A stretch of 64,000 bases of DNA from the IMG/VR virus record IMGVR_UViG_3300002835_000169, positions 1 through 64,000 of that record. The stretch is one strand, 5' to 3'. The stretch comes from a virus. Below are positions 34,821 to 64,000 of this stretch, piece after piece. The notes under the pieces were generated by a model. It was not told where the DNA came from and searched no databases. It worked only from the letters and a program-made list of their open reading frames with translations. Numbering within the stretch: position 1 is the stretch's first letter; each line of letters opens with the position of its first letter. The translations under genes and the position numbers were made by a program.

Positions 34821-37037
34821 CTACACCGCTGTTAGGTTTGTATACTCCAAGCCTTCGTAGGTTCTAATTCTCCAAAATAGGTTTTGAGGAATCCAATCCT
34901 TAAGGGTGTAACCAAGGCGAGGCAACTTAAGTGGCTTGCTATTGTATACTGAAGAGTAAGAGTCACCAACAGCACCCTGCCAGACGGCACCAAATGGGTT
35001 ACCGCTAATTGAAGATAGACTTCCATCAAAGTAGTCAGTTGCTTTAGGAGACTTCTCTGCTTGAATTGAGTCTAAGAAGACAGTGTTTGCACCCGTTCCA
35101 GAGAAAACCATCTCTAAAGTAGAGATACCTGTATTGCTTCCTACGAGGACTGTGTAGGAATCACGCACCCAACTTGTAGACAAACCAACTGTGTAAGGAG
35201 GAGGGGCATTTACTGTTACCACTGCCCCTAAGTCATCTTTAGCAACAATAGAAAGAGTTAAATTAGCTGTTGCTTTTTTGTAGAACGAGAAGGTATAAAA
35301 CTGACCTTCTTCAACAGGAAAAGAATTAGAAGTAAACGACCATGCACCACTTGTATTTACTAACTTAGCGCTGTGTTCACCAGAGTAAGAGCCTGTTGGT
35401 TCATCAGTGTCTTTAGTTACAGTTAGATTAGCCCCAACTTTTGTCCAACTGTTTGTTACGTTTGTTTCAAAAGTTGGATTATTAATAAAGTTTGTTTTGT
35501 TTGGATTTAAAAAGATATCAAGTGCACGAGCTTCGTCGTATGCAATAGTTTGCCCACTTTGAACACAGACCATATCTACAAAGTAAGTTCCAGCAGCAGA
35601 CCACGCTAGCTCTATACCTGCATATACAGAATCTGTTCCAGAGTTAGTAACTAAAGCTGTTGTAGTGGTTGTACCTGTCACAGCAGCCGTTACTGTAAAA
35701 GTATTAGTTGTAGGTACTGTTGCTATTGTAGCTCCCGTTAAGTTAAACGCCGTATCTGGAGCAATAAATCCAGCAATTGTGACTACTTCTCCAGCAATAA
35801 GATTGTGCGGTTCTGATGTTGTGTAAGTTATTGTTCCAGAAGCTCCTGTAGCAAAGTCCACAGACACAGACACGTTCTTAGTGGCTCTAGCGCTTACAGA
35901 TGCTTGCGCGTAAGTGTTTGTTGCGTTAGTTGCTGAGCCAGAAACAGTGCTTCCTATTTGAGTTCCGTTACCATCATAGTATGTAATCTTTGGGGTTATA
36001 GTTCCAGCACTTGCAGGTGACTTTACTTGCGCAGATAAAGAGTAATAAGTTGCAGTAGATACAGGTATGCCTTTACGTACAGGGTCTACATCTCCTAGCT
36101 TCATTGACCCAGCACCTGTAGCAACAATTTTGCACGAGTAGGTTAAATCAATGTTGTTTGAGTTAGTTGGTGGGGTTTGTTCTGTGCTTGAGGATATCGT
36201 GGCACCTGTTGCAACCCAATTACCTGTTGATTTGTAGAAAGTTGAGTCTTGAGGAGTTAGCATTAAGTTTTTAGACATCGTCAAAGTTGGTGCGTAACCC
36301 GTTAGGGACTCAACATAAGTTCCTAGCCCATTTAGAGTTCCTTTATTGTTATACATATATACAGACTCACGAATTAACTGTTTTTGATTTTTTACTGGTA
36401 AACCAGGTTCGTTTAAAAGCCCAAAGTTAGCTACTTCTAATGGAAGCATTGAAGCAACAGTTGCTACACGTGTGTGGTCAGGAAGTAGCAGGTCTAAATA
36501 GGTTATTGCTTCATCTAAATCAAAACCGTACGCGTCAAGAAACGTAGCTAAAGCTGAGGTATAATCAATAGGAGAAAGAGGGCTCTGCTCTTTACTAGTG
36601 AAAACTCTAGGCAAAAGTTCTAAGAGTTTTTCTGCGGTTTTATGGTCTGTAGGAACTATACCTTCAATAGAGCCAGCGTCTACCCAGGATTTTCCAGGGT
36701 CTGTAAACAAAAACAGTTTATAGTAAAGAGGTTTTCCAGGAACAAGGGCTGGAGTTGACGCTAAGTCTTCTACTCCACCTCCGTCGTTAAACATGGTTTT
36801 AGTAAGCGTTGTTGTACTAGCCTCATAAACAATGATTCCGTCTTCCGCTGTTTCTGGGTAGCTACTTTGGTTACGTACCAGTCTTACTGCGGAGTATGTT
36901 CCTGTTGGAGTTTGCCAGTACACGTAAGACTCGTGAAAGTCCGTGACAAGTAACGTCATCGGCTCAACAGAATACGCAAGTAGAGGGCTAATGCCGTACT
37001 TAGATATTCCATAGATTGCATTACCGTAATTAGCCAT
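34821..37037 (-). CDS. Tail protein I-like baseplate/tail fibre protein with carbohydrate-binding-like modules
   Basis: 738 residues. Residues about 130-240 (SALATFLDAYGFDLDEAI..DLLLPDHTRV..MLPLEVANFGL..KQLIRESVYMYNNKGT) match the P2 gpI-type tail protein motif, which joins tail fibres to the baseplate. Later parts include a beta domain (about 395-470, ITYTTSEPHNLIAGEVVTIAG) that also occurs in the J protein, and two lectin/CBM-like jelly-roll segments (NFINNPTFETNVTNSW). It stands at the end of the tail block and probably carries receptor-binding or fibre-attachment function. Confidence 0.72.
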   Translation of the reverse strand: MANYGNAIYGISKYGISPLLAYSVEPMTLLVTDFHESYVYWQTPTGTYSAVRLVRNQSSYPETAEDGIIVYEASTTTLTKTMFNDGGGVEDLASTPALVPGKPLYYKLFLFTDPGKSWVDAGSIEGIVPTDHKTAEKLLELLPRVFTSKEQSPLSPIDYTSALATFLDAYGFDLDEAITYLDLLLPDHTRVATVASMLPLEVANFGLLNEPGLPVKNQKQLIRESVYMYNNKGTLNGLGTYVESLTGYAPTLTMSKNLMLTPQDSTFYKSTGNWVATGATISSSTEQTPPTNSNNIDLTYSCKIVATGAGSMKLGDVDPVRKGIPVSTATYYSLSAQVKSPASAGTITPKITYYDGNGTQIGSTVSGSATNATNTYAQASVSARATKNVSVSVDFATGASGTITYTTSEPHNLIAGEVVTIAGFIAPDTAFNLTGATIATVPTTNTFTVTAAVTGTTTTTALVTNSGTDSVYAGIELAWSAAGTYFVDMVCVQSGQTIAYDEARALDIFLNPNKTNFINNPTFETNVTNSWTKVGANLTVTKDTDEPTGSYSGEHSAKLVNTSGAWSFTSNSFPVEEGQFYTFSFYKKATANLTLSIVAKDDLGAVVTVNAPPPYTVGLSTSWVRDSYTVLVGSNTGISTLEMVFSGTGANTVFLDSIQAEKSPKATDYFDGSLSSISGNPFGAVWQGAVGDSYSSVYNSKPLKLPRLGYTLKDWIPQNLFWRIRTYEGLEYTNLTAV

Positions 37038-43556: not shown

Positions 43557-46462
43557 TAGTTGCTTCCTATCTTCTCAAGTTTATTGTCTTTTTCAAGATA
43601 CTTTTTCAAAGTTTTTGCAAAAGCTTCTGCTTCATGCTGATTAGCCTGCTGTATCTGTAAGGTAACGTAGATGTTATTTGTGTCACCCTGTGAAGTTCCT
43701 TTACCTCTTGCGGTGGGAAGGGACATCTCATACGGCTTTGCATTAATAACATTTGTGTTAAACCCATCTGTTGGACCACCTTGCATTGCGCCAATTCCAA
43801 GGCTTGCTCGTGTAGAAGCAGCTTTATCACTTTGGTCTTTTGGTCGCTCAAAATCTGTCATAAAGACTCTTGCAGCATCCATAATTGAGACATTAGGGTC
43901 TTTTAACTTTTTCATCATTGAACCGTACGTTTTCATTTCTTTTAACAAAAACATTTTTTGAAGTTCAATATCTAGGTAACTCATGCCTTTAGAGACAGCA
44001 AATTTCTTTAGCGCATCTCCACGGCCCTTATGCCATTGAGCAATTCCAAAAGAAGTTCCGCCATCTCCAACCGCTCCAGTACGCAGACCAGATTCTTGGA
44101 TTAAGTTACCGACCACGCCAGTGGCTCCATTGTGGCTTAGGCCTTGAGCCATAAGCCAAGCGTGTATCTCTTTAGCATTTGCTCTAACACCTTCCCCAAC
44201 AGCAGCAGCCGTAGGTGATGCAGACGCAGTAGGAGACCCACCCGCTGCGCTAGAAGCTGTGTTTTTCTTTCCATCGCCGCCTGGAGTAGCTGGGTAGTAA
44301 CCGTTAGGGTCAGTAGGTACTTTTCCTTTGCGTAATTCAAAGTGTAAGTGAGGACCGCGAACGTTGCCTGTGGAACCAGATTTACCAATTAAATCTCCAA
44401 CTTTAATTTCTTGACCAGAACGAACTGACTTTAAGTTTAAGTGACCGTAAATAGATGAGTATCCATCTCCATGGTCTACTTCTACTGCAATACCTAAATC
44501 TCTACTTAAGTTTCTAGTTACTACTTTTCCAGGAAAACGAGCATAGACAGGCGTACCAGTTGGCATAGGGGTGTCTTGACCTGTGTGATAGTTCAGAGCT
44601 CCAACCATGGTTAATGACGAGTCTTTTGCGCCAAACCCAGCTCCCATTTGTTTAGAGAGAGAAGTTGAACCCATTGAAGCAGCTAAAGCACCATAAGCCA
44701 TAGGTTGAGAGCCAGAATTAAATGTAAATGCGTTTACTTGGGAACCCGCTGAAGAAGAGAACCCAGTTGTTGGTCCACCCATTATAAATCCTGCACCTGC
44801 AGCTAACGCTGTAATCGCTGCAGAACTGACATTGCCAATACCAGGTATAGCATTTATCAGCGCTGTTGCACCGAACGCAGTTGCTCCCCATTTGGCTGCA
44901 TTTCCAGCACGACTTCTTAAGCTACCTTTTTCTGAATCTCCTTTTATTTTGTCACCAGCATAGCCTCCCGCCATCGCAACAACTCCTGCAACAGTTGCAC
45001 CTTTAGCAACTTTAGCTAACGTAGCTAATCTAGCTGCTCTAGCTGTTGCTGCTGCAGTTGCAGCAGATGCAGCAGTAGCTGCTGTAGTAGCAGTAGCAGC
45101 AGTTCCTGTAGCGGCAGCTGCTGTAGTGGCTGCTGTAGTAGCGGTAGCAGCAGTAGCCGCTGAAGTAGTTGCGGCTGCACCACCAGCTTTTGCAGCAGTA
45201 AGGGCAGCCTTAGCTGCAGATGCTGCCTTCCATGCTCCAAGTCCTGTGAGTACGCTTGTAACCGTACCCGTTAAGCCACTGCCTGATTTTGTTCCATTGA
45301 AGGTTTGCAGTGCGCCCTTCATTTGCAAGATTAATTCAGGTGTCTGTTCTAAAGCTTTATTTAGTTTCTCTAAAGCCCCTGCTGCAGTTTCCGCTCCTTT
45401 TAACAGGCCTTTTTCGGAATCTTGAGTAAGACTTTCTTCTGAGTCATTAATCCTGTAGAAAGGATTAAGAGGATTATCAGATGTTTTCATATCTTTTAAT
45501 TCGCCACTTTTTCCTGAAGCGATTTGTCCCATTGAAGCTTTTATTAAAGTTGCTGTTTCACCTGTAATACCCATAGTAGATAGTTGGTAATCAAGGTTCA
45601 TACCCATAGAGTCTCTTGCAAATTGTTCTGCACCAATTTTAGTTACATCTTTTCCAGCATAAAAGACGTTTTTCATAAGGTCTTTTGCTATAGCGCCAGG
45701 TGTGCGCAAGTTACCTTTTGTGTCGTACTGGTTAATACCGTACTGGTAGAGCTGAGCTCCCATACTTCCTGTAGACAACGCTCCAATTGCAGATGAAGCA
45801 GCTGCGTTGTCCATATTCAATGCTTTTGCTGCTGCGCTGGTTTGTTCCAAGCCCATCTTCATGTTTGAACTACCAGGCATAAAGCTGTAGTTAGTAAATG
45901 TACCAAAAGCTTCGGCAGTACCCATAGGGCCTGTGATGCCGCCCTTCATGGCTGCCATTGTGCTTAATTGGTTTTGAGTTCTATTACTTCCACCAAACAT
46001 AGCTGAAGAACCGTAAAAAGAACCAGCTCGTTGTGCTACTGCTCCAACGTCTGGAAGCATACTTGAGAACCCACCAACAATAGCCGTTGCTATCTGAGCT
46101 CCTGCAGCCATCTTACCGAATGAGGCTTGTCGTATACCGACGTCTAGGTACGCACTGTTTATTCTTTCGGAAGTGCTTTCGTAGTTTGCTTGCTGCGCAT
46201 TTGACGCAGGCTTAGCTGCTGCCATCGGTGTTTGGTTTGAAAACTTTGGCGCACCATTTATAGCTGTTTTTCCAAATACAGGCGTTCCTTGCCCATTACC
46301 AAACTGACCGCTTTTGGAAAGAACCGCATTGACGTCCCCAAATGCTGATGGTCCAAGTCCTTTAATCTTTTTTAAGACGTCATAGACACCAGAGAGCTCT
46401 TTTTTAAGGGAGGTGACAGAGGAGGTAAGCGTTTTCACATTACCCATAAAGTTAAATGCCAC
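43556..46462 (-). CDS. Tape measure protein with M23 endopeptidase and tail lysozyme domains
   Basis: 968 residues from GTG 46462. The central region is Ala/Thr-rich helical low complexity (about 415-480), typical of tape measures. Residues about 620-710 form an M23 peptidase: HTGQDTPM (His, Asp), YGHLNLK and HLHFELRKG with the metal-binding His. Residues about 755-860 are a tail lysozyme (VGNLIQESGLRTGAVGDGG, FGIAQWHKGRGDA). The protein sets tail length and, upon injection, opens the cell wall. Two different lytic domains in one protein suit a thick or unusual cell wall. Confidence 0.9.
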   Translation of the reverse strand: MAFNFMGNVKTLTSSVTSLKKELSGVYDVLKKIKGLGPSAFGDVNAVLSKSGQFGNGQGTPVFGKTAINGAPKFSNQTPMAAAKPASNAQQANYESTSERINSAYLDVGIRQASFGKMAAGAQIATAIVGGFSSMLPDVGAVAQRAGSFYGSSAMFGGSNRTQNQLSTMAAMKGGITGPMGTAEAFGTFTNYSFMPGSSNMKMGLEQTSAAAKALNMDNAAASSAIGALSTGSMGAQLYQYGINQYDTKGNLRTPGAIAKDLMKNVFYAGKDVTKIGAEQFARDSMGMNLDYQLSTMGITGETATLIKASMGQIASGKSGELKDMKTSDNPLNPFYRINDSEESLTQDSEKGLLKGAETAAGALEKLNKALEQTPELILQMKGALQTFNGTKSGSGLTGTVTSVLTGLGAWKAASAAKAALTAAKAGGAAATTSAATAATATTAATTAAAATGTAATATTAATAASAATAAATARAARLATLAKVAKGATVAGVVAMAGGYAGDKIKGDSEKGSLRSRAGNAAKWGATAFGATALINAIPGIGNVSSAAITALAAGAGFIMGGPTTGFSSSAGSQVNAFTFNSGSQPMAYGALAASMGSTSLSKQMGAGFGAKDSSLTMVGALNYHTGQDTPMPTGTPVYARFPGKVVTRNLSRDLGIAVEVDHGDGYSSIYGHLNLKSVRSGQEIKVGDLIGKSGSTGNVRGPHLHFELRKGKVPTDPNGYYPATPGGDGKKNTASSAAGGSPTASASPTAAAVGEGVRANAKEIHAWLMAQGLSHNGATGVVGNLIQESGLRTGAVGDGGTSFGIAQWHKGRGDALKKFAVSKGMSYLDIELQKMFLLKEMKTYGSMMKKLKDPNVSIMDAARVFMTDFERPKDQSDKAASTRASLGIGAMQGGPTDGFNTNVINAKPYEMSLPTARGKGTSQGDTNNIYVTLQIQQANQHEAEAFAKTLKKYLEKDNKLEKIGSN

Positions 46463-52787: not shown

Positions 52788-52988
52788 CTAAGCTTCTGGG
52801 GTCTCAAAAGGGTAATGAGTGCCAGGAACAACGCTCTCTGGTTCGTTTGTTACATCTATAGTCAATGGCTCACTTAACAAGATTGCAGCTAAGCGCTCAT
52901 CTGTGTGAAGGATGTCTTGAATAACTCCGTCAATAACAAAAGCAACTTTTTTTGGGGGAAGTGGACGGTTTGGGTCAAATGGTTCCAT
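52788..52988 (-). CDS. Hypothetical small protein
   Basis: 66 residues. PPKKVAFVIDGVIQDILHTDERLAAILLSEP suggests a small alpha-beta domain also found near phage neck genes. Start overlaps the previous stop. Function unknown. Confidence 0.6.
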   Translation of the reverse strand: MEPFDPNRPLPPKKVAFVIDGVIQDILHTDERLAAILLSEPLTIDVTNEPESVVPGTHYPFETPEA

Positions 52989-53248
52989 TACTTTGTTTCC
53001 TCTTCTGATTGGTCTTCTGTGTAGCTAATCTCTACAGCGGCCCACTTGTCTAGTGGACAAAATGCATTTGGAAGTTTTACTTTTGACTGCATAAAGCAGC
53101 CACATTCTTTACACTGACCTGTTAGTTTTATTAACTTAGGGCAAGCAGAACAGATTTCGTACCGTTCTTCTGCAACAGTTGTTTGAACTCTTCCAAGGTT
53201 TTTATTGAATAAATCCCAAGGACGTGCATTACGTGGTTTGTTGCTCAT
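52988..53248 (-). CDS. Small zinc protein with CxxC pairs
   Basis: 86 residues. YEICSACPKL, CKECGCFMQ and FCPLDKW give Cys spacing of a two-part zinc finger, similar to small phage proteins near T4-like late genes. Acidic end. Possibly a late transcription or assembly factor; not proven. Confidence 0.65.
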   Translation of the reverse strand: MSNKPRNARPWDLFNKNLGRVQTTVAEERYEICSACPKLIKLTGQCKECGCFMQSKVKLPNAFCPLDKWAAVEISYTEDQSEEETK

Positions 53249-53258
53249 TGTGCTCCTA

Positions 53259-56135
53259 TTATGATACCGAGAAGTTGTCTACCCCTGCTCCAAGGGCTAG
53301 TGTGCTAGTGCCTAAAAATACACCGTAATTTCCAACAGGAGTACCTGTACCTGTTGTGGTGTAAATCTGAGTACCGCTTGAGTTGTAAGCATATACTGTC
53401 CAAGAACCAGCCGCACTTACTACCGCTGTAATCTTTGTAGGGGTAGACCCAAGTAGCCCACCTGTTGTTCCACCAGTAATAATTCTGTCACCAGTAGCGG
53501 TAGCTGTTGGTGTAACTGGTTGTCCTCCTCCAAGAGTAGTTCTGTCGGAGGTATTTCCAAGGCAACCGCATGTTGGGTAAGAGTTTACAGCCGCACCAGT
53601 TGAATCGTAGGATGCCGAACCATAAGTACAGTTTGGGTATGTTCCGTTGTTTGTGCTAGAGGTTGCAGTCGCTTGACCTTGATATGTAGCACTAATTGCA
53701 GTAGTTCCGTAATTACAGTTTGGGTATGTGCCAGAGGCTGGGGTTACCTTAGAGCTTACAGTTGCGTTTGTGTAGGAATAAACAGGCATTGTGCCTTCGG
53801 CGTAGCAAGAAGCGTAGGACCCAGAACCAGTTGTTGGGTTTGGTCCATTCACAGTACCGCTACCGCACAAGTAGCATGTGCTGGAAGTTGGCGTAAGCTG
53901 ATAGCCACCTTGTAAACAATCTCTTAAACAAATAGAGCCGCTTCCTTCAGGAAGGCATTCTCCAATGTAAAAACATGGGTTGGAATAGCTTTGAACATCT
54001 ATTGATGTACAGCTTCGTGCAGATGGAGTTGCGCTGTAAGTAGTAGCACCGCCAACGTATGAGTAAATACCATTACCAGTAGTTCCAGCATAAACCTGAC
54101 ACTGAGTATTGTTGTAGAGAGTTCCACTACTACAGCTGTAACAGCTTCCGTTGTACTCTGTAGTTCCAGAAGGACAAACGGCTGAACCTTGAGCACAACT
54201 AAGGCAATTAGGAAAGGAAAAAGTTCCAGAACTACAGGTGTAACACTGCCCGTTAAATTGGTTTTGACCACCTGGGCAAGAATAAAATGTCGTTCCAGTA
54301 CAATAATAGTTTCTATAACTACAGTCAGTACAGTAGTTGTTACCTGTTGAATACGTGTAGGTGTACTGTTGGTAATACGAACTATAGTAAGACCCGCTAC
54401 CCGTTACCCACCACGCAACTCCGTAACCGTTACTTACATCGGCTGTTACCGTTGCAGTTCCATTACCAAACGATACAGAGGCAACACCAGACGAAGATGA
54501 AACGCCACGACTTCCGTTGGTAGACCAGGAACCAGAGTGAGAGGTCCAAGGACTACCAGAAGAGGTTGTTCCTAAAGTAGAACCAGAACGGTTAAAGTTG
54601 TCTGTAATAGAAGGCAGTGGAAGAACACTGTTTGAGGTTATTCCTCCTCCTACACCAGCTCCGTTTCTTGCTTTTAGAGTAAATGTGTATGACTGAGTTG
54701 CCGCAAATGTTCCTGAAACGCTTACAACGCCACCTGCAGCGCTAGGTGTTCCAGAGTAAGTCAAAGCAATCGCAGGGCTAGAGACAATATCTCCAGTACT
54801 TGTCCCACTTCCTTGCCACGCAGTAAGTGCGGACCCGTTTTGTACAATGGCTCCGTACGTTAGGTTTACAGATGTAGTGGTTGCAACAGCAGCGCTTAAA
54901 CTTGCTGGAGTACCAGGAGTTGCTGGTGCAAACGGCGTAATAGATTGAGAGGAAGCAGTTGCAGTGCCCATAGGGTTAGTAACGCTAAAGGACACAGTGT
55001 ATTGAGTTCCCTGCACATAACTAGCTGTGTAAGTTAAAGCGCCTGACGTGTTTCCTACAGGACTTGTCCCTGCGGTAGTTGGTGAGATTCCAGAGACTTC
55101 TGAAACATATGAAGTAACAGCTTGTCCACCAGTGCTATAGGAGTACGTTCCAGTAATGTTGGTGTTGCCAGTACTAGACAGGGTAAATGTAGGAGTGCTT
55201 GGGATAGTTGCAGCAACCCGTGAGTTACTTGATGCAGATGCTGGAGAATCTCCATTTGCATTTACTGCTTTAAGGATTACAGAGTAAGAAGTTCCCGCTA
55301 CAAATGCTGGAGTTCCAGAGGTGCTTTGCGTAGTTAAAGTCATTGGGCTTGTATTGCTTGGCGCTGTTATGTAAGTAGTTCCACCATCTGTTGAGTACTT
55401 GTACGAGGTTATTGCTGAGCCACCTGTGCTTGTTGGTGCTGTAAAGGTCAAAGTAAACTGTGGGTTAGAACCAAAAGCAATACCAGTAACATTTGAAAGA
55501 GTTCCGATAGTAGGAGCAGATTCAGGAATAGAAGACGGAGTAATGAAGGTACTTGCAGAAGAAGCTAAGCTTGTTCCATTATCGTTAGTTGCGGTAACTG
55601 TGTAGTTTCTAGAGATACCCACAGTTTCAGATATAGTAATTGGAGAAGTTGCTCCAGAAACAACTGTAGTGCTAGAAGAGGTTGCTGTAAAAGTTGTGAT
55701 TGATTTTCCACCAGTTGCGCCAGCGGTAAAGACAACCCCAATGTTTGCAGAACCAGTGTATGGCTGACCACTAGCAAGAGTGGGAGTTCCGATAGTTGGA
55801 GCCTGTGGAACGGTAGTTGCAGTAATACTATCTGATGCAGCAGAGGCAAGACCTGTTCCTACAAAGTTTGTTGCTGTTGCTGTAAAAGTATAAGCGGTAT
55901 TAGATTGCAACCCAGTTACAGTTAAAGGAGAAGAGGTACCAGAGGCTGTGAATCCTCCAGGGCTAGAGGTTACTGTGTAAGAGGTTGCTTCAAAGCCAAT
56001 TGGACTTGGGGTAAAGGTAACTACTGCTGCGCCATTATTGAACGCTCTATCTGTTCCTACATCTGTAGCTGTGCCAATTGTTGGAGCGTTAGGTACTTGC
56101 CTACGGCTAGAAGCCGTTACTCCAACAATTGACAT
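53259..56135 (-). CDS. Large Fn3-repeat, cysteine-rich adhesin-like virion protein
   Basis: 958 residues. About 1-510: five or so fibronectin-III-like repeats of about 95 residues (pattern AFTATATNFVGTGLASA, TYTVTATNDNGTSLAS). About 510-570: a lectin-like start (ITDNFNRSGSTLGTT..WTSHSGSW). About 598-860: a region with about two dozen Cys (CTDCSYRNYYC, CYTCSSGTF, CYSCSSGTL, CYLCGSG) rich in Tyr, Gly, Ser, much like EGF/furin-type disulfide modules, rarely seen in phage. A final beta domain. Likely a surface adhesin or receptor-binding fibre downstream of a modification cassette. Confidence 0.75.
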   Translation of the reverse strand: MSIVGVTASSRRQVPNAPTIGTATDVGTDRAFNNGAAVVTFTPSPIGFEATSYTVTSSPGGFTASGTSSPLTVTGLQSNTAYTFTATATNFVGTGLASAASDSITATTVPQAPTIGTPTLASGQPYTGSANIGVVFTAGATGGKSITTFTATSSSTTVVSGATSPITISETVGISRNYTVTATNDNGTSLASSASTFITPSSIPESAPTIGTLSNVTGIAFGSNPQFTLTFTAPTSTGGSAITSYKYSTDGGTTYITAPSNTSPMTLTTQSTSGTPAFVAGTSYSVILKAVNANGDSPASASSNSRVAATIPSTPTFTLSSTGNTNITGTYSYSTGGQAVTSYVSEVSGISPTTAGTSPVGNTSGALTYTASYVQGTQYTVSFSVTNPMGTATASSQSITPFAPATPGTPASLSAAVATTTSVNLTYGAIVQNGSALTAWQGSGTSTGDIVSSPAIALTYSGTPSAAGGVVSVSGTFAATQSYTFTLKARNGAGVGGGITSNSVLPLPSITDNFNRSGSTLGTTSSGSPWTSHSGSWSTNGSRGVSSSSGVASVSFGNGTATVTADVSNGYGVAWWVTGSGSYYSSYYQQYTYTYSTGNNYCTDCSYRNYYCTGTTFYSCPGGQNQFNGQCYTCSSGTFSFPNCLSCAQGSAVCPSGTTEYNGSCYSCSSGTLYNNTQCQVYAGTTGNGIYSYVGGATTYSATPSARSCTSIDVQSYSNPCFYIGECLPEGSGSICLRDCLQGGYQLTPTSSTCYLCGSGTVNGPNPTTGSGSYASCYAEGTMPVYSYTNATVSSKVTPASGTYPNCNYGTTAISATYQGQATATSSTNNGTYPNCTYGSASYDSTGAAVNSYPTCGCLGNTSDRTTLGGGQPVTPTATATGDRIITGGTTGGLLGSTPTKITAVVSAAGSWTVYAYNSSGTQIYTTTGTGTPVGNYGVFLGTSTLALGAGVDNFSVS

Positions 56136-56870: not shown

Positions 56871-57536
56871 CTAGTACTTACTACTGTTAATATGGCAAAT
56901 TTCAATCTCATTTATATTAACGTGACTTGGTAGCGACCCTACCCAGTAAATAGCTTCTGCTAAATCCTCTGCAGTTAAGGCTTGGTCTCGTTTTTGCTCT
57001 TGGGTATCAATAGTTGCTGGACAAATTTCTGTAATTTTAATGCCAAATTGTGGGAACTCAAGTCTCATTGTGTCAATTAAACCGCGTTCACCCCTCTTGG
57101 CATTTGTGTAATTTCCTCCACCGCGATACGGCACCTTACCTCCAAAAGAGGTGATAAATACAATTGTTGGGGAATCTGACTTTTCCATACACGGCACAAA
57201 TAATTGAGAAAGGTACATAGGCCCAGATACGTTTATATCGTAGGCTCGTCTAAAGTTATCCATAGTCTCATTAATAATGTTAGTTGGGCTAGAACCACCA
57301 CCAGCATTATTAACTAGAAGGTCTAAAGTAATATCCTTATACTTTTCAAAGAAGCCCTCTATTGCTTTAGAGTCTGTTACATCTAGGCTGTATACTTCAA
57401 CGTTGTCAGATACAAGCTCAGATACTTTAGACAGGTTTCTTGAAACAGCAATAACCTTGTACCCATTTTCAGATAGACGCTTGACTGTTGCTAGGCCTAC
57501 GCCCTTACTTGCTCCAGTAACAATTGCTGTTTTCAA
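56871..57536 (-). CDS. Short-chain dehydrogenase/reductase
   Basis: 221 residues from TTG 57536 directly after the previous TAA. TGASKGVGLATVKRL (cofactor-binding), NNAGGGSS, a Ser in FITSFGG, and YTNAKRGE (YxxxK) give the classical SDR set. NAD(P)-dependent oxidation or reduction of a small substrate, possibly a sugar or lipid. Unusual in phage tail neighbourhoods; part of the oxygenase cassette. Confidence 0.88.
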   Translation of the reverse strand: MKTAIVTGASKGVGLATVKRLSENGYKVIAVSRNLSKVSELVSDNVEVYSLDVTDSKAIEGFFEKYKDITLDLLVNNAGGGSSPTNIINETMDNFRRAYDINVSGPMYLSQLFVPCMEKSDSPTIVFITSFGGKVPYRGGGNYTNAKRGERGLIDTMRLEFPQFGIKITEICPATIDTQEQKRDQALTAEDLAEAIYWVGSLPSHVNINEIEICHINSSKY

Positions 57537-58292
57537 TTACATACCCTGGTTCTTATTAAGCTCCATATTGTTATGAATCCAGTGACCAGGAATCATGTAT
57601 TTAAAACCAGACTTTACAACGTGTGCGGTATGAAAGTATGGGGGAAAGGCTGGGAATATGACAACGCTATTTTCTTTTGGCTTTAGTCCAAAATCAATTG
57701 CTTTATTTGCAACAGATACGTCGTAGTCCAAGTCTACGGCTGGAGCTGACCCCTTAGAAAAACCATCAGCGCTAGTCCATCCTCCATCATAATCTTTTAA
57801 CTGAAAAGAGATTTCGCCGCCTTCACAGTCGTCGTTTAAGTACATTACTAATGAATATCTTAAGGTCTTATCGCCATCTAGCTGGTCAAAATGTGCGCCC
57901 ATGCCCATTCCAGTATTGTACTTTTTTATATTAAACGTTGGAAAAAGTCTTGGCTCATCAAAGTCCCCTAAAGAAGAAGCATAGTCTTTGCAAACGTTAT
58001 ACATTGCAGTCATAACCGCGTCGTATATATACTTACTTTTTTCCGCTACTTTTCCGCTATCTGAATCGTAAATGACGCTAAGCCTATTAATTGCATTAAT
58101 ATCAAATGTTTTTGTTTCTCCATAAATAAAGTTTTTATCATTAGAAGCGGTCCAGGTGTCCCAAACGTTTACGCCTAAGTCTGTGTATTGCTCAAGAGTG
58201 TCTAACTCTTTCCAAACCTTTTTAAAGGTATCAAAGTCCTCAATAGCATCTGTATAGTAGTACGCTTTTGGGTCCAGTATTTCTCTGTTCAT
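57537..58292 (-). CDS. 2OG-Fe(II) oxygenase 1
   Basis: 251 residues. GAHFDQLDG gives HxD, and about 90 residues on FHTAHVVKSGFKYMIPG supplies the distal His with Lys instead of Arg for 2-oxoglutarate. MYLNDDCEGGEISF is the core strand of the prolyl-4-hydroxylase-like fold. It uses Fe(II), O2 and 2OG to hydroxylate an unknown target. First of the series in this cassette from the left. Confidence 0.85.
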   Translation of the reverse strand: MNREILDPKAYYYTDAIEDFDTFKKVWKELDTLEQYTDLGVNVWDTWTASNDKNFIYGETKTFDINAINRLSVIYDSDSGKVAEKSKYIYDAVMTAMYNVCKDYASSLGDFDEPRLFPTFNIKKYNTGMGMGAHFDQLDGDKTLRYSLVMYLNDDCEGGEISFQLKDYDGGWTSADGFSKGSAPAVDLDYDVSVANKAIDFGLKPKENSVVIFPAFPPYFHTAHVVKSGFKYMIPGHWIHNNMELNKNQGM

Positions 58293-58303
58293 CTGTTTCT
58301 CCC

Positions 58304-58972
58304 TTAGTACTTATTTTTTGCGTAATGGTCTTTTTCTTTAATGAACCCAACAAGAACATATCGTATTGGTCCATCTCCTACATGCTTGACTCCGTGCTCA
58401 TACTCTTCGTTTCCTGGAAAAAATAACATAGTTCCTGGCTTAGGTTTTAACTGGATATCAAGGTTTGGAAAAAATAACTCACCATCTACGTAGTCGTCAT
58501 TGATGTATACGATGGTGGCATACTTTATAGATGGGTCTGTTTTTTGGTCAGTGTGCGCTTTTAACTCTACCCCTGCTTGCATTCGTTGAATTGTTGCAAA
58601 TCCACTTAAAATTAATTCTGGGTCAGCTTTGACCACCATAGAGTTTACAACATCGTATAAAGGCCTTTGGATTTCATGATGTAGTATGTTAAAGTTTTTA
58701 TCTTTCCAATTTTGGGTAATCTCAAACTTACCTTCAGCAACCAGATTATCTACATCATCTCTACCAAATTTTTCCAAACAAAAATACTTTAAGTTTGCGT
58801 GGTACTCTACTTCCCAGTCTTCTTGTGACGTACTGTGGATAATCTCCCAAAAAGTGTTTATTTGGTCTTGGGATAAAAAGTTCTCAACAGAGAATAGCTC
58901 TGGGGTAATATCTGTAACTACGTATCCGCTGTCTATCAACTGTTGTTTAAAAGACTCAATCATTTGCAACAT
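58304..58972 (-). CDS. 2OG-Fe(II) oxygenase 2
   Basis: 222 residues from ATG 58972 (ATG 58963 possible). HTDQKTD, VYINDDYVDGELFFP and HGVKHVGDGPIRYVLVG give HxD...H...R, the complete facial triad plus the 2OG-binding Arg. Similar in layout to the prolyl hydroxylase-like oxygenases of cyanophages. Overlaps oxygenase 3 by 17 bases. Confidence 0.87.
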   Translation of the reverse strand: MLQMIESFKQQLIDSGYVVTDITPELFSVENFLSQDQINTFWEIIHSTSQEDWEVEYHANLKYFCLEKFGRDDVDNLVAEGKFEITQNWKDKNFNILHHEIQRPLYDVVNSMVVKADPELILSGFATIQRMQAGVELKAHTDQKTDPSIKYATIVYINDDYVDGELFFPNLDIQLKPKPGTMLFFPGNEEYEHGVKHVGDGPIRYVLVGFIKEKDHYAKNKY

Positions 58973-59711
58973 CTTCTAGTTTGTACTTATTTCCTGCTGC
59001 GTCTAACTTCCAGCCTTGCTTAAGAAGCTCTTGCCACTCTGCTCGTTCAATCTCTTGTTGCGCTCTAGTAGCCTTCATCTCTTCAGCCCATGCATCTCGC
59101 ACCTCTTGTGGGTACGCTGACTCTTCTCGGTCATCCCAGAAAGAACCAATGGTGTATCTGACACCACCTGTAATAAGAGATACTTCGTGCATATTGTTAA
59201 ACCCGCCGTCAAATACAGCAAGCAGCCCAACTTCTGGTTTAATCTCTAAGTTTTGTGCTGGGAACCGTAAAAGCCCACCTTCAAAATCATCGTTTAAGTA
59301 TAGAAACCCTGCGTAGCGGCTTCTTGTAAACGCACCTGAGTTTCCCTCAGCATCTGTGTTGTCAGAGTGAATTCTTGCATATGCTCCTGGCTCCCACTTC
59401 TGTGTGTGGTACCCAATTTTACAGATTGTTTTTGGGTCAAGGTCGTGGACTGAAGCAATTGCTTCAGGCATTGCCTTTTCAATATCTGAAAATATAGTTG
59501 GAGATAGACCAGCGTCAATAACCTCTTGGTCGTTGTCTTGTGGCAAAACTGAGGAATAGGACTCGTAAAATGAAATTGGCATCCAAGAAATTGCCCCATT
59601 CTCTGCCTGAGCATCTAGGGCTTGAATCATCTTTTTGCAATCTTCTTTGCTTATGAAGTTCTCATAAACAACGATGTCTTTTGTTAGTCGTTTTTTGTTT
59701 GCTAGGTTCAT
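58956..59711 (-). CDS. 2OG-Fe(II) oxygenase 3
   Basis: 251 residues. IHSDNTDAEGNSGA, FLYLNDDFEGGLLRFP and MHEVSLITGGVRYTIG carry HxD...H...R. The N-terminal KDIVVYENFISKEDCKKMI is the family start. A C-terminal helical extension of about 50 residues (EEMKATRAQQEIERAEWQELL) is unlike the others. AACGGAGTAAAAG precedes the ATG. Confidence 0.87.
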   Translation of the reverse strand: MNLANKKRLTKDIVVYENFISKEDCKKMIQALDAQAENGAISWMPISFYESYSSVLPQDNDQEVIDAGLSPTIFSDIEKAMPEAIASVHDLDPKTICKIGYHTQKWEPGAYARIHSDNTDAEGNSGAFTRSRYAGFLYLNDDFEGGLLRFPAQNLEIKPEVGLLAVFDGGFNNMHEVSLITGGVRYTIGSFWDDREESAYPQEVRDAWAEEMKATRAQQEIERAEWQELLKQGWKLDAAGNKYKLEDVAND

Positions 59712-59727
59712 TGTACTTTTACTCCGT

Positions 59728-60501
59728 TTAGTTATTTAATAGGGATTTATCTCCAGCAATTAACTTTTCTATCTCTTGTTGAACAAGGGCATACTCTTCT
59801 TCAAATACTTCTGGGGTTCTGCCTTCTCCCATACCCGCAGGGTTTCCCGCAGCTATTAGGGCTTCTTTTAGTGTCTTTTCAATATCGTAATTTAGTACTG
59901 TGCATTGAAACCAGTTAGCTACATACCCATCTCTATCAATAAGGTACTTCTCAAAGTTACCGCCCTGCATTGCGCCGTTGCCAAAAGGTTGATTTAACCA
60001 AGGTGACAAATAGCCATCTCTGTCTGGAATGCCAAGTTCTCTTTGTTTTTCAGCAAACGCAAGCATTTGCTCAGCTATTTCTTTGTATAGCTCATGAGTT
60101 TCTTTTCTTGGTTGACCTAGTCCGTTTACAGAGTTATCGCCCTTGTAAGGGCTAAGCTCAGTAGCACTCTCATTTGGGTTTGACGACACCATCTCTGAGA
60201 ACTTAAACGTGGTTCCGTAGACTTCTTGACCATACTCTTGTGAATCTAAGCCACAGGTAATGCCTTCAGACCACTTGCCCTTAGTTACTCCTGGGCCACA
60301 ATAGTCATTAGTAGGAATTGCAATAACTTGGAAATCATCTCCACCGTACTTATCTTGAAGCCATTGGAGAACTTCCATTTGATTAGCGTTGCCGCAGCCG
60401 ACGGTTGTATTCGTCAACAAGGTTACTTTGCCTTTAAATTGACTTAAGAAGTCAGGAGAGCCCTCAGCTGAGTTAAGAGGGATGTCGTAAATTGATTTCA
60501 T
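59728..60501 (-). CDS. Glutathione-peroxidase-like protein
   Basis: 257 residues. SIYDIPLNS, then NTTVGCGNANQMEVLQWL (peroxidatic Cys at the GPx position), IPTNDYCGPG (replacing FPCNQFG) and NFEKYLIDRDGYVANWF follow the GPx scaffold. It also has a C-terminal helical extension of about 50 residues. It would reduce peroxides, for example those made by Fe(II) oxygenases, or act as a thiol-redox partner. Rare in phage genomes. Confidence 0.8.
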   Translation of the reverse strand: MKSIYDIPLNSAEGSPDFLSQFKGKVTLLTNTTVGCGNANQMEVLQWLQDKYGGDDFQVIAIPTNDYCGPGVTKGKWSEGITCGLDSQEYGQEVYGTTFKFSEMVSSNPNESATELSPYKGDNSVNGLGQPRKETHELYKEIAEQMLAFAEKQRELGIPDRDGYLSPWLNQPFGNGAMQGGNFEKYLIDRDGYVANWFQCTVLNYDIEKTLKEALIAAGNPAGMGEGRTPEVFEEEYALVQQEIEKLIAGDKSLLNN

Positions 60502-60522
60502 AGGGTTGATTGTACCTCGTCG

Positions 60523-61209
60523 TTATGGTTGTCTAGGTCCTGTATGCTTTGTTATTTCCCAAAAGAAAGGGCATGTAAAACGTAAGCCGCTTTTTACCTC
60601 AGTAACCCCATGGATGTAGTTTTTGTCACCTGGGAAGAAGTAAGCAGCGCCTTTTTTAGGCTTAAACTGCACACCCTGTAGTGGGAAATACAGCTCTCCG
60701 CCCTCATAGTCATCATTTAAATAAAACAAACTTGATAGGTCATAGTTTGGAAAGTCGTTAGGTGTTCCAGCGTCGGGGCCCTCGTGGAGCTCTTTATCAG
60801 CGTGTGGTTTTTGAAACTGCCCAGGAAGCCATTTAACAATAGTTGTCCCAGTTGGTATAACTTCTACCTGGTAGAACTCTTCAATAATTGGTCGTAGTCT
60901 TTGAAATAGCCCAGCAATTACTGGAGATATCTTTGGGTCATTTTTATCTAAAGTTGGCTGAGTTGCGACTCGGTCTTTCCAATAATCTGAGTCGTAGGTA
61001 ACGGTCCCATTCTCATTTGTATGGCTTTCCGTAACATCCCAAATTGTTAAAGACTTAGCAGCTTTTTCTAAGAACTCTATCTCTTCTTGGGTCATGAAGT
61101 TTTCTAGCTCAACAATCATGTCTTTGCTATCCCCAAACCAGCCTGATGGAGTTATAGATGGGGTTCTTTTTACTACGGTATACGAATCTTTGTTTTGTTC
61201 CATGCTCAT
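60523..61209 (-). CDS. 2OG-Fe(II) oxygenase 4
   Basis: 228 residues. PHADKELHEGPDAG (HxD), FYLNDDYEGGELYFP and IHGVTEVKSGLRFTCPF (His, Arg) give a full set. N-terminal MIVELENFMTQEEIEFLEKA is the usual start. Start overlaps the stop of the next upstream gene (ATGA). Confidence 0.87.
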   Translation of the reverse strand: MSMEQNKDSYTVVKRTPSITPSGWFGDSKDMIVELENFMTQEEIEFLEKAAKSLTIWDVTESHTNENGTVTYDSDYWKDRVATQPTLDKNDPKISPVIAGLFQRLRPIIEEFYQVEVIPTGTTIVKWLPGQFQKPHADKELHEGPDAGTPNDFPNYDLSSLFYLNDDYEGGELYFPLQGVQFKPKKGAAYFFPGDKNYIHGVTEVKSGLRFTCPFFWEITKHTGPRQP

Positions 61210-61922
61210 AGTGTATCCCTTTTCGTTTTATCTATTACCCCTAATTTTAGGGTCTTTACTTCATGAGAGCCTAGGCTTTCTTCTCTTTCGTTTACAGCGT
61301 CTCTGTACCAATCTGTCCATTTTCCAGAAGAGTTTACTTTTTGTGCAGCCTCTCCGTAAGAAATGTTTGCATTTAATCGTTTGCTACCTGGGTCTTGGTA
61401 CTCAACAACCTCAATGTTTGTTCCATTTAACTTTGACAAAGATATTGGGATAATTGTGGCAACTGGGGTTCCAGCCTTAATAACTACCCTTTTATTTGCA
61501 ATCTTTGCCTTGATAGCTAAAGGCAAAGGGTTGTCGTAAAAAGATGTGCTGATTAGGGACGACATAGTTTCAAACTCATCACTAAAATAATTTACTGGGT
61601 TAATAGTAAAGATACTGACATCTTCATCTGTCCTAAAAACCAGTCCCGTGTTTAAGCTTATAGAGGATTGACCTCTACCAGAGTAAGCCCCTTCTGGACT
61701 AAACACTTGGACACGGTCTGGTGTTTGGTCGTTTATTCCATCCCAAATAAACTCAATGTCCTGTAAGCACGATAAACTCCAGCCAATTACATTTGACTGG
61801 GTTACTGGAAAACACCTGTAAGCGTGATTCTCTGACGTTGCATCCATCCAGTCTCTTTTAATGGGCATAGGTTGGACATCAAAGAGAGCCCCGTGTGTTT
61901 TTTCAACTGAGATGTTGAACAT
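61206..61922 (-). CDS. DUF6065-like protein A
   Basis: 238 residues. HAYRCFPVTQSNVIGWSLSC and FIWDG with later FRTDEDVSIFTINPVNYF and AGTPVATIIPI recall the DUF6065-type beta proteins that occur next to 2OG oxygenases in phages and marine bacteria. Its neighbour at 62588 has the same plan, so they are likely paralogs. Possibly the substrate-binding or cupin-like partner of the oxygenases. Confidence 0.6.
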   Translation of the reverse strand: MFNISVEKTHGALFDVQPMPIKRDWMDATSENHAYRCFPVTQSNVIGWSLSCLQDIEFIWDGINDQTPDRVQVFSPEGAYSGRGQSSISLNTGLVFRTDEDVSIFTINPVNYFSDEFETMSSLISTSFYDNPLPLAIKAKIANKRVVIKAGTPVATIIPISLSKLNGTNIEVVEYQDPGSKRLNANISYGEAAQKVNSSGKWTDWYRDAVNEREESLGSHEVKTLKLGVIDKTKRDTL

Positions 61923-62578
61923 TAATCTGATTCTGCGCTATACATCTCTGGAGTATGAAACTTTTTGCTGTAGTCAAGCATTGTCACAATAGAGTATTTG
62001 ACGCCAGAAGTCACTGGCATTGCTTGATGTGGGTACATAAAATTTGATGGAAAAATAAACAGGTCCCCAGCATCTGCTTTAACCTTTAAGTTCTGTAACC
62101 TAAAGTAAAGCTCGCCACCTTCGTAATCATCGTTTGGATACCCAACTAAAGAAACTGTACAGTTGTAAGAAAATCCATGGTCATGGTGCTCCATAAAGTG
62201 TTGTCCTGGACCATACTTAATGAAGTTGAATGCTTCCCAATACTTTAAATTGTTAATGTTGTACATTCTGCAGTAGTCTTCAACCGCAGGTAACTTAACG
62301 TCATACAAATCTTGCCACAAAGCTTGAAGATTTAAGCTGACCTGACTCTTGTCATTTTCTATATCAGTCTTCTTAAATTTAAAGTCGTTGCAGTCTCTGT
62401 ACTCTGGCATAAGCTGCCTATACCCAACGTACGCTGGTTGCCAAGCATACCCAGTCATATCTCCTTCTGGCTTAAGGTTTGCTTCAATTCTACCTATAAC
62501 ATCAATGTCTTTATTGATGACGCCCTTATAGCAAAAGATGCCACTACCTAAATCAACTTTTTCTGTCCATGTTTGCAT
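61922..62578 (-). CDS. 2OG-Fe(II) oxygenase 5
   Basis: 218 residues. EHHDHGFSYNCTVSLVGY gives HxD, PNDDYEGGELYF is the central strand, and PHQAMPVTSGVKYSIVTML has distal His with Lys in place of Arg. It closely resembles oxygenase 6, so it is a second member of the Lys subtype. Overlaps DUF6065-like protein A by one base. Confidence 0.85.
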   Translation of the reverse strand: MQTWTEKVDLGSGIFCYKGVINKDIDVIGRIEANLKPEGDMTGYAWQPAYVGYRQLMPEYRDCNDFKFKKTDIENDKSQVSLNLQALWQDLYDVKLPAVEDYCRMYNINNLKYWEAFNFIKYGPGQHFMEHHDHGFSYNCTVSLVGYPNDDYEGGELYFRLQNLKVKADAGDLFIFPSNFMYPHQAMPVTSGVKYSIVTMLDYSKKFHTPEMYSAESD

Positions 62579-62587
62579 TGCATTCTC

Positions 62588-63355
62588 CTATTTGTAGTCT
62601 CGTTTTGACCAAACTTTGGTTTGGTATACGCCGCCATCAGGCTGACGGTAAAATTGCATGTTCTTTACTAATTTATCATACATTGTAGATTGGTCTGGAA
62701 TGTCTATTTTGTGTTCCCAGTTTTCTCGTTTAAACGGGAGAACCTGCATATACGGAGTTCCTTCTGGGATGGTACCTTCCCAACCTTCTGGAAGAAAGAA
62801 TGGAAAAGTTCCAAGTAAGTGAAGCTTGTCTGAGTCTACAACGCCAGTAGTGTTTAGGAACGGTAAGTCAAACCTATTCATTGGTGTCATAAACAGTGCG
62901 CTGTATCCCTCTGGAAGTTCTAGTCCCCAAGGAGAGCTCCAAGCAAAATGAGTTTGATAGTATCCTTTTGGATGCTCAAACTGTGGCATTGGGGGCCTTT
63001 GGGTACAGAAGTCTTGGTACTTAGGGTTATTGATTTTTACATCTATGATTCCTTGAGTATTTTTATAGAAAGTTAAATCGCACGGTGTTTTAAAGATGTA
63101 CCCAGTTGTAAAGGCGTCCATAATAGCTGGGCACGCTTTCCATGTAGGAATTTTTCCATAATCATCTGTTGTACCCTCTTTAGGAAATGGGCAAATTTCT
63201 TTTGGAGCTTTGTAATATTCTCCGTTTGGCATTTTTGCAAATCTGTCTGCATTTTTATACCAGGCAGGCATTTGCGTCTGTGTCGGTACTGGAACAGAGA
63301 TATGCTTTTTATCTATCCACGGCCTAAATGACCTAAATATGGCTACTAAAGCCAT
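62588..63355 (-). CDS. DUF6065-like protein B
   Basis: 255 residues. MPAWYKNADRF, ACPAIMDAFTTGYIFKTPCDL, FAWSSPWGLELPEGYSALF and PEGTPYMQVLPF match the order of segments in DUF6065-like protein A, though identity is low. It lies between two oxygenases of the Lys subtype and overlaps the sixth at 63355. No catalytic motif. Confidence 0.6.
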   Translation of the reverse strand: MALVAIFRSFRPWIDKKHISVPVPTQTQMPAWYKNADRFAKMPNGEYYKAPKEICPFPKEGTTDDYGKIPTWKACPAIMDAFTTGYIFKTPCDLTFYKNTQGIIDVKINNPKYQDFCTQRPPMPQFEHPKGYYQTHFAWSSPWGLELPEGYSALFMTPMNRFDLPFLNTTGVVDSDKLHLLGTFPFFLPEGWEGTIPEGTPYMQVLPFKRENWEHKIDIPDQSTMYDKLVKNMQFYRQPDGGVYQTKVWSKRDYK

Positions 63356-64000
63356 TACTTGTGCCCTAACTCGTTAATGTCTGTCATCACAACAACGCAA
63401 TATTTTGTACCTGAAACCATCGGCAGAGAAGCGTGCTCATAAATATAGTTTGATGGGAATACTGCAATGTCCCCTACTTTTGGCTTATAAACTAAGTTAT
63501 CAAGTCTTGGGAACTTAAGGTCTCCACCTTCATAATCATCATTAATATAAATAACCGCAGATACTGTGCAGTTGTATGCAGGACCGTGGTCTGCGTGAAT
63601 GTTGAAGTGAGTCCCTGCCCCCTCATACTTTACAAAGTTAAAAGCTTCGTAATATACGACGTTAATACCCCAATACCTAGCATAGTCGTCTATACAGTAC
63701 TTAAGCTTTTGGTATATCTCCTCATGCAAGTCTATAAGTTCAGCGTTTGACTCATCTCTTGGCCCAAGGTTCTCCTGCTTATACTTAAAATCTACACAGT
63801 CTCTTGCCCGCTTAACTGGGACAGCAGATTGTGTAACTTGCGCCTCTGACCACTTATATTTGTTGCCTGATGATAGATTGGACTCAAGAGTGTTAATGTA
63901 TCTTGCGGCATCTTCACGTGAGAAAGTGTTTTGGTAGAGGTGTAGTCCCAAACCTAAATTTTTAACACTTACTTTATCGTCTAGAGCTCTTTCAGGAACT
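63355..64000 (-). CDS. 2OG-Fe(II) oxygenase 6 (5-prime end probably beyond window)
   Basis: HADHGPAYNCTVSAVIYINDD (split here by length) gives HxD, and EHASLPMVSGTKYCVVVMTD gives the distal His and Lys. The frame stays open to the right edge: TTG 63951 is the first in-window start, but the upstream KVSVKNLGLGLHLYQ aligns with KVDLGSGIFCYKG in oxygenase 5, so the real start likely lies outside. At least 215 residues of open frame are present. Confidence 0.75.
   Translation of the reverse strand, partial: VPERALDDKVSVKNLGLGLHLYQNTFSREDAARYINTLESNLSSGNKYKWSEAQVTQSAVPVKRARDCVDFKYKQENLGPRDESNAELIDLHEEIYQKLKYCIDDYARYWGINVVYYEAFNFVKYEGAGTHFNIHADHGPAYNCTVSAVIYINDDYEGGDLKFPRLDNLVYKPKVGDIAVFPSNYIYEHASLPMVSGTKYCVVVMTDINELGHK

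Follow-up and report, generated by a model that had tools for sequence, protein, structure and literature searches.

A cysteine-rich insertion in a predicted jelly-roll domain of a fibre-like protein from an uncultured contractile-tailed phage

The window analysed here is a stretch of 64,000 nucleotides out of the 65,060 bases of virus record IMGVR_UViG_3300002835_000169 in IMG/VR. An open reading frame (ORF) on its minus strand (53259..56135), with an ATG start and intact homologs in L001, L002, L005 and L007 (compared loci and records are given by their L numbers), encodes a fibre-like protein of 958 amino acid residues (aa), in which a fibronectin type III (fn3)-like array is followed by a predicted jelly roll split by a cysteine (Cys)-rich insert. 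The protein contains exactly 24 Cys, all located between residues 602 and 858 and none outside, in close agreement with a first-pass annotation that had placed about 24 at residues 598 to 860; the chance probability of all 24 falling within one 257-residue span is 8.5e-15. The two repeats quoted in that annotation, CYTCSSGTF and CYSCSSGTL, were located at residues 631 and 665, and the insert includes five CxxC motifs. The Cys content of the protein is 2.5%, compared with a mean of 0.36% for 12 further ORFs of the window that are probably structural. The presence of a Cys-rich region is confirmed.

The family of the window protein consists of five sequences (window, L002, L005, L007 and L055). 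In their alignment, 23 of the 24 Cys positions are invariant, compared with 98 of the 251 remaining positions in this region (Fisher p 2.6e-8), and synonymous TGT/TGC changes are found at the Cys codons, five to nine per sequence pair. The sole exception among the Cys positions occurs in L007, the total of which is still 24.

Four segments can be distinguished along the protein, all encoded on the minus strand. Residues 1-505 (54621..56135) include a short N-terminus and the fn3-like array, the latter identified by a match to Pfam fn3 (E 7.2e-7, 29.8 bits with a cut-off of 25, best stretch residues 36-101), with more repeats recognized by eye. The N-terminal half of a ConA/CBM66-type jelly roll is predicted at residues 506-590 (54366..54620), the Cys-rich insertion occupies residues 591-865 (53541..54365) with its 24 Cys in blocks of 12, 8 and 4, and the C-terminal half of the jelly roll is predicted at residues 866-958 (53262..53540). 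The same layout is present in L002, L005, L007 and L055, and the distant loci L008 and L058-L063 carry the same two halves flanking very different Cys-rich stretches. Searching with the joined halves recovered 67 loci, the majority of which matched one half only, as large inserts would lead one to expect, and altogether 62 distinct sequences had the same two halves flanking unrelated inserts.

Since the half-domain hidden Markov models (HMMs) used to collect these 62 inserts included the window's family, the non-circular tests are the leave-out searches with each half. The N-half HMM built without the window's family matched window residues 511-585 (E 4.4e-15, 56.8 bits), the maximum over 1000 shuffles being 10.5 bits. 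For the C-half, a longer profile of 55 sequences from other families gave all five window-family members scores of 13-24 bits in the correct register. Alignment of the window-family C-half with the C-halves of other families by hhalign yielded a probability of 85% (E 6.1e-6), against 0.15% for a reversed sequence and 0.07% for the fn3 stretch. The leave-out and hhalign results therefore make the N-half firm and the C-half likely. As judged by homology of its flanks, the Cys-rich region is an insertion that splits a jelly-roll domain, a feature missed by the first-pass annotation. At the insertion place, L194 and L195 have a short turn and no Cys insert, with 2 Cys per whole ORF; L194 also includes SASA esterase and fn3 domains and matched Laminin_G_3 (PF13385) with an E of 0.0032, which does not reach the curated cut-off. 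No credible Pfam match was found for the window domain, the insert or the joined halves. By sequence search of the PDB, the whole protein matched fn3 proteins alone, Titin being the best of them (E 4.8e-6), and the Cys region or the joined halves gave nothing credible.

The predicted fold comes from a short-insert relative, L082, for which AlphaFold2 with 16 sequences gave a jelly roll at a predicted local distance difference test (pLDDT) of 78.2 and a predicted template modelling score of 0.72. Its Cys-rich insert (residues 94-149, pLDDT <50) is carried on two long strands (residues 76-93 and 150-167). When the Foldseek candidates for this model were aligned with VIA, Bacillus subtilis CBM66 (4b1l; Z 17.6, 147 residues, 2.2 Å) ranked first and the central fibre gp20 of mycobacteriophage Douge (Z 15.8, 156 residues) second, followed by the lectin-type domain of galactocerebrosidase and C-terminal domains of GH43. 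In BFVD, 14 matches were obtained at E <= 0.001, including uncultured Caudovirales proteins and actinophage tail fibre and minor tail proteins. A jelly-roll beta-sandwich is indicated for L082 by the model and for the window protein by homology.

The number of Cys was compared across all inserts at this site. The 90 ORFs with both halves represent 51 distinct domains, to which later scans added 11 distinct inserts; the 10 ORFs with one half were not counted, eight of them running off the contig end and the other two being L194 and L195. The first 51 inserts (105-625 aa, including a few dozen flanking residues) contain 6-52 Cys, the later 11 contain 14-64 Cys, and the count is even in 51/51 and 11/11, that is in 62/62 distinct inserts of IMG/VR phages with 6-64 Cys, belonging to 20 similarity clusters. 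At least 16 changes of Cys count within clusters were detected, all by even numbers. With the clusters alone taken as independent units, the chance of such evenness is about 1e-6; the counts of other residues are even in about half of the inserts. For whole domains the count is even in 47 of 51, the remaining four (L099, L104, L108 and L115) having one extra Cys in the C-half.

Sites with four Cys would also give even counts, and the insert could consist of stacked knuckles that bind zinc or iron-sulfur through their CxxC pairs, without disulfides. Such an arrangement agrees with the five CxxC motifs of the window, with the zinc-ribbon-like product of the neighbouring DUF6171 gene (see below), and with one weak Pfam zinc-ribbon match in L055 (E 0.055). 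CxxC pairs in fours are, however, not a rule of the family: 14 of the 62 inserts have no CxxC despite containing up to 40 Cys, the count is not a multiple of four in 24, and His is scarce (1.4 per insert). Evenness, taken together with these 14 and 24 inserts, favours disulfides over metal sites. Zinc-like packing, as suggested in the first-pass annotation, is disfavoured as a general rule, and we consider an insert of metal knuckles improbable. The sequence pattern points to pairing of the 24 Cys by disulfides, and the region described by the first-pass annotation as disulfide-rich is real, conserved and very probably so.

The same annotation had noted a resemblance to the EGF, furin and GCC2/GCC3 repeats of eukaryotes, and short motifs such as CYTCSSGTF are indeed alike. 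Four C-terminal regions and the Cys cores were compared with Pfam by hmmscan up to E 10, the HMMER filters dropping most weak matches; none of these families was matched, and only EB appeared, at E 8.6. GCC2/GCC3 (PF07699) was matched in 0/10 phage records up to E 10, compared with sub-threshold matches in 11 of 14 control genomes, which indicates that the profile is able to respond. The resemblance gains no support from profile searches, and membership of the region in these families was rejected. Acquisition of a true repeat family of this type from a eukaryote is highly improbable, the presence of many unrelated inserts at one site arguing for local invention.

Within the window's family the insert is the most variable part, with an identity of 52-81% (by segment) compared with 75-93% for the fn3 array and 75-92% for the halves, the Cys being kept. 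The Cys blocks of 12/8/4 in the window are replaced by 18/8/10 in L002 and L055, and a stretch of L131 resembles, by eye, the 8-Cys block of the window. Phages with related sheath proteins carry different tips: L011 and L012 (sheath 66% and 63% identical to that of the window) encode related fn3 proteins with Cys-poor tips, a jelly roll with 8 Cys is present in L101 (62%), and the insert of L008 (74%) is unrelated and has 22 Cys. Other related fn3 proteins terminate in Gly_rich_2 domains. Such a pattern at the level of the locus is the one expected if recognition tips are swapped on a shared stalk. A second, smaller tip type with 10 Cys, lacking the jelly roll, was noticed on fn3 proteins of L010 (5862-6194) and L042 (1-915). 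The 625-aa insert of L078 (856-3153), with 52 Cys, consists largely of tandem TTCTGGTVSCTD-like units followed by a Cys-free YTRTSPSN repeat.

Immediately downstream of the Cys-rich gene, a gene on the same strand (52988..53248) encodes a zinc-ribbon-like protein of 86 aa with 6 Cys, which belongs to DUF6171 (PF19668; E 3.5e-7, 30.9 bits, cut-off 27). After exclusion of 4 of the 62 Cys-insert loci, which have less than 700 nt of flank, a DUF6171 gene is located downstream of the Cys-insert gene in 58/58 cases, no more than 400 nt away in 51 of them and at a greater distance in 7. For fn3 loci without the split domain the number is 2/34 (L010 and L042, both with the different 10-Cys tip), giving a Fisher p of 1e-22 that ignores relatedness. 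L011 and L012 have no DUF6171 gene in the flank examined, though their sheath is nearer to that of the window than the sheath of many loci having one. Judging from this linkage, the DUF6171 protein probably aids the folding or assembly of the Cys-rich tip. In most loci compared, the zinc-ribbon gene is followed by a gene for a 66-aa protein (52788..52988, minus strand).

Among cultured phages the linkage is incomplete, which speaks against a universal association of DUF6171 with Cys-rich proteins. Neighbours were counted in 12 regions with a DUF6171-like match. The gene at or directly before the match is Cys-rich in S-SRM01 (11 Cys) and S-LBS1 (13 Cys), that of ct2os315 holds 6 Cys, and in S-IOM18 a gene with 9 Cys lies one gene away. 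No Cys-rich upstream neighbour was found in 7 of the 12 regions. In addition, gp94-96 of S-CRES3 contain 1, 4 and 2 Cys, the fibre of S-SCSM2R contains 4 Cys in 1520 aa (listed part), and for syn9 the count covers one downstream fibre gene only. Synechococcus phage S-CRES1 encodes, two genes upstream of its DUF6171-like gene, a 514-aa protein with 53 Cys (gp85; L203 1684-3228), for which no match to the jelly-roll HMMs was obtained.

A glutathione peroxidase (GSHPx)-like protein (Pfam GSHPx, E 1.9e-8) is encoded upstream of the Cys-rich gene (59728..60501, minus strand). Such a protein exceeded the cut-off in 7 of 47 records, 7/33 with the Cys domain and 0/14 without (p 0.09), the statistics being weak with two of the seven representing the same virus. 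In the six records measured, its distance to the Cys-rich gene downstream is 4-5 kb. The GSHPx-like gene is part of a shared block; a role of its product as an oxidant for the Cys is speculative. The Erv/ALR profile matched 0/47 records, its control being silent as well, so that absence is not established by this search, and the glutaredoxin profile gave nothing over cut-off. The block itself (56871-63951, minus strand) extends over about 7 kb and encodes an SDR protein, several 2OG-Fe(II) oxygenase-like proteins and the GSHPx-like protein. It is mostly 88-97% identical in L196, L197 and L198, a few genes being only 42-76% identical, whereas the sheath proteins of these three are merely 33-43% identical to that of the window. 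Because of this difference, recent exchange of the whole cassette among phages is suggested.

The tail genes of the window specify a contractile-tail sheath, a tube, baseplate J-like and hub-like proteins, and a tape-measure-like protein with M23 peptidase and lysozyme domains. Genes for DNA polymerase A, a DnaB-like helicase, a class II ribonucleotide reductase and a tyrosine integrase were also identified. No tRNA genes were found in the window, and no capsid, portal or terminase gene was recognized among the ORFs scanned, which were part of the total. The sheath protein had no relative in GTDB genomes. Short tandem repeats are present inside the tape-measure-like ORF (45051-45179) and inside the integrase ORF (5793-5884). 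After the baseplate genes, a 738-aa protein (34821-37037, minus strand) with a CBM_4_9 carbohydrate-binding domain represents a second candidate for host binding.

The Cys-rich gene is flanked by a glycosyltransferase/oxygenase block on one side and, on the other, by small genes that extend as far as the sheath gene; it lies 2.5-4.4 kb upstream of the latter in 16 records (computed by hand). We consider it probable that the gene product serves this contractile-tailed phage as a fibre or tip protein of the virion, with an exchangeable, disulfide-locked tip for receptor binding. Several observations weigh against this. The gene is situated between the oxygenase genes and the head-tail and sheath genes, away from the baseplate, so that the protein may instead form a fibre of the neck or head. 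The 958-aa protein had no PHROG match and no relative among 50,697 phage records, in which L008, L063, L082 and L080 likewise had none. The shorter C-half leave-out HMM gave no match to the window within threshold, AlphaFold2 failed on the window domain itself (pLDDT 30.8, 5 sequences), and the name of the fold rests on the VIA re-alignment, since none of the Foldseek matches of the L082 model in the PDB reached E <= 0.001, the best having an E of 1.1e-2. As to the Cys, evenness was noticed before it was tested and is indirect evidence, 8 of the 11 confirming inserts join clusters already known, looser linkage leaves only 2 clusters, and the count is even in 32 of 44 unfiltered control ORFs with at least 6 Cys.

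The position upstream of the sheath gene would suit a device for stability or cross-linking in the neck, collar or head fibre, with no receptor-binding loop, as in Agrobacterium phage Milano, the virions of which are stabilised by disulfides (PMC10491603). We regard such a role as unlikely: the other structural proteins of the window are Cys-poor (0.36%), the insert is placed on a lectin-type fold, and its wholesale variation in sequence and size suits recognition better than a structural lock.

For a disulfide-locked receptor-binding tip, the following arrangement can be proposed. The short N-terminus would anchor the protein and the fn3-like array would act as a stalk, displaying the terminal domain on the virion. 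In the predicted ConA/CBM66-type jelly roll, one long beta-hairpin would carry the Cys-rich insertion of about 270 residues, the 24 Cys of which, to judge from the strict evenness across the family, may form about 12 disulfides, possibly oxidized only after release from the cell. The insertion would then be a compact, fast-changing loop that is held off the lectin body and binds a host surface structure. Such loops may evolve through sequence change between the conserved Cys, through even-numbered gains and losses of Cys, through duplication of modules and through replacement as a whole at the insertion site, and the downstream DUF6171 protein may, given its linkage, help the tip to fold or assemble. 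Binding to a surface, as proposed in the first-pass annotation, would fit the lectin-type scaffold of the model. Overall, the interpretation given there is partly supported.

A wider proposal can be made only tentatively, and we hold it with considerable doubt: a cystine-loop display system may exist in uncultured contractile phages, with the jelly roll as a fixed socket, loops of 6-64 paired Cys as the host-specific part, and the DUF6171 protein as a partner for folding or thiol guarding, joined in some phages by the GSHPx-like protein as an oxidant. If such a system exists, it would represent a phage-encoded route to disulfide-locked variation in receptor binding. For the tip itself, a simple sequence rule, an even Cys count plus a DUF6171 neighbour, would locate host-recognition tips in uncultured phages if the proposed role is right, and maturation of a large disulfide-rich phage domain after synthesis in the cytoplasm would become testable. 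No paper describing Cys-rich inserts in fibre jelly rolls with a linked small gene was found in the literature searched, which included few subscription journals and preprints.

Lectin-type jelly-roll tips on phage fibres are already known. The scaffold of L082 superposes on the CBM66/ConA-like lectin/LamG jelly rolls (4b1l, PF13385) with the Z of 17.6 given above; in contrast to CBM66, one hairpin here carries a large Cys-rich insertion, and the sequence identity is only 16%. The likeness of the window's own domain to CBM66 rests on homology. In gp20 of Douge (8zdq/8zdp), a jelly roll is likewise located within a phage fibre (residues 696-873), the match concerning the L082 scaffold only, with its low-confidence Cys-rich insert excluded from the alignment. 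Among cultured phages, S-SRM01 encodes a protein annotated as a gp37-gp38 adhesin tip (QPX48018.1; L201 3820-4908), in which a Cys-rich patch lies within a Gly-rich region. It resembles the window protein in its Cys-rich patch (11 Cys among 362 aa) and in being followed directly by a DUF6171-like gene, and differs from it in its Gly-rich tip, in giving no match to the jelly-roll HMMs and in its odd Cys count. According to PMC10811340 and PMC10491603, the contractile virion of Milano carries extensive disulfides, which form a virion-wide network in cryo-electron microscopy, and their reduction weakens the particle; the view of the first-pass annotation that the reducing cytoplasm stands in the way of phage disulfides is, on that evidence, too strong. 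Milano and the window's phage are alike as contractile phages with many disulfides, predicted in the latter. In Milano, the Cys are spread over the structural proteins (2.1%) and cross-link them, whereas in the window's phage they are restricted to a single domain in a single protein.
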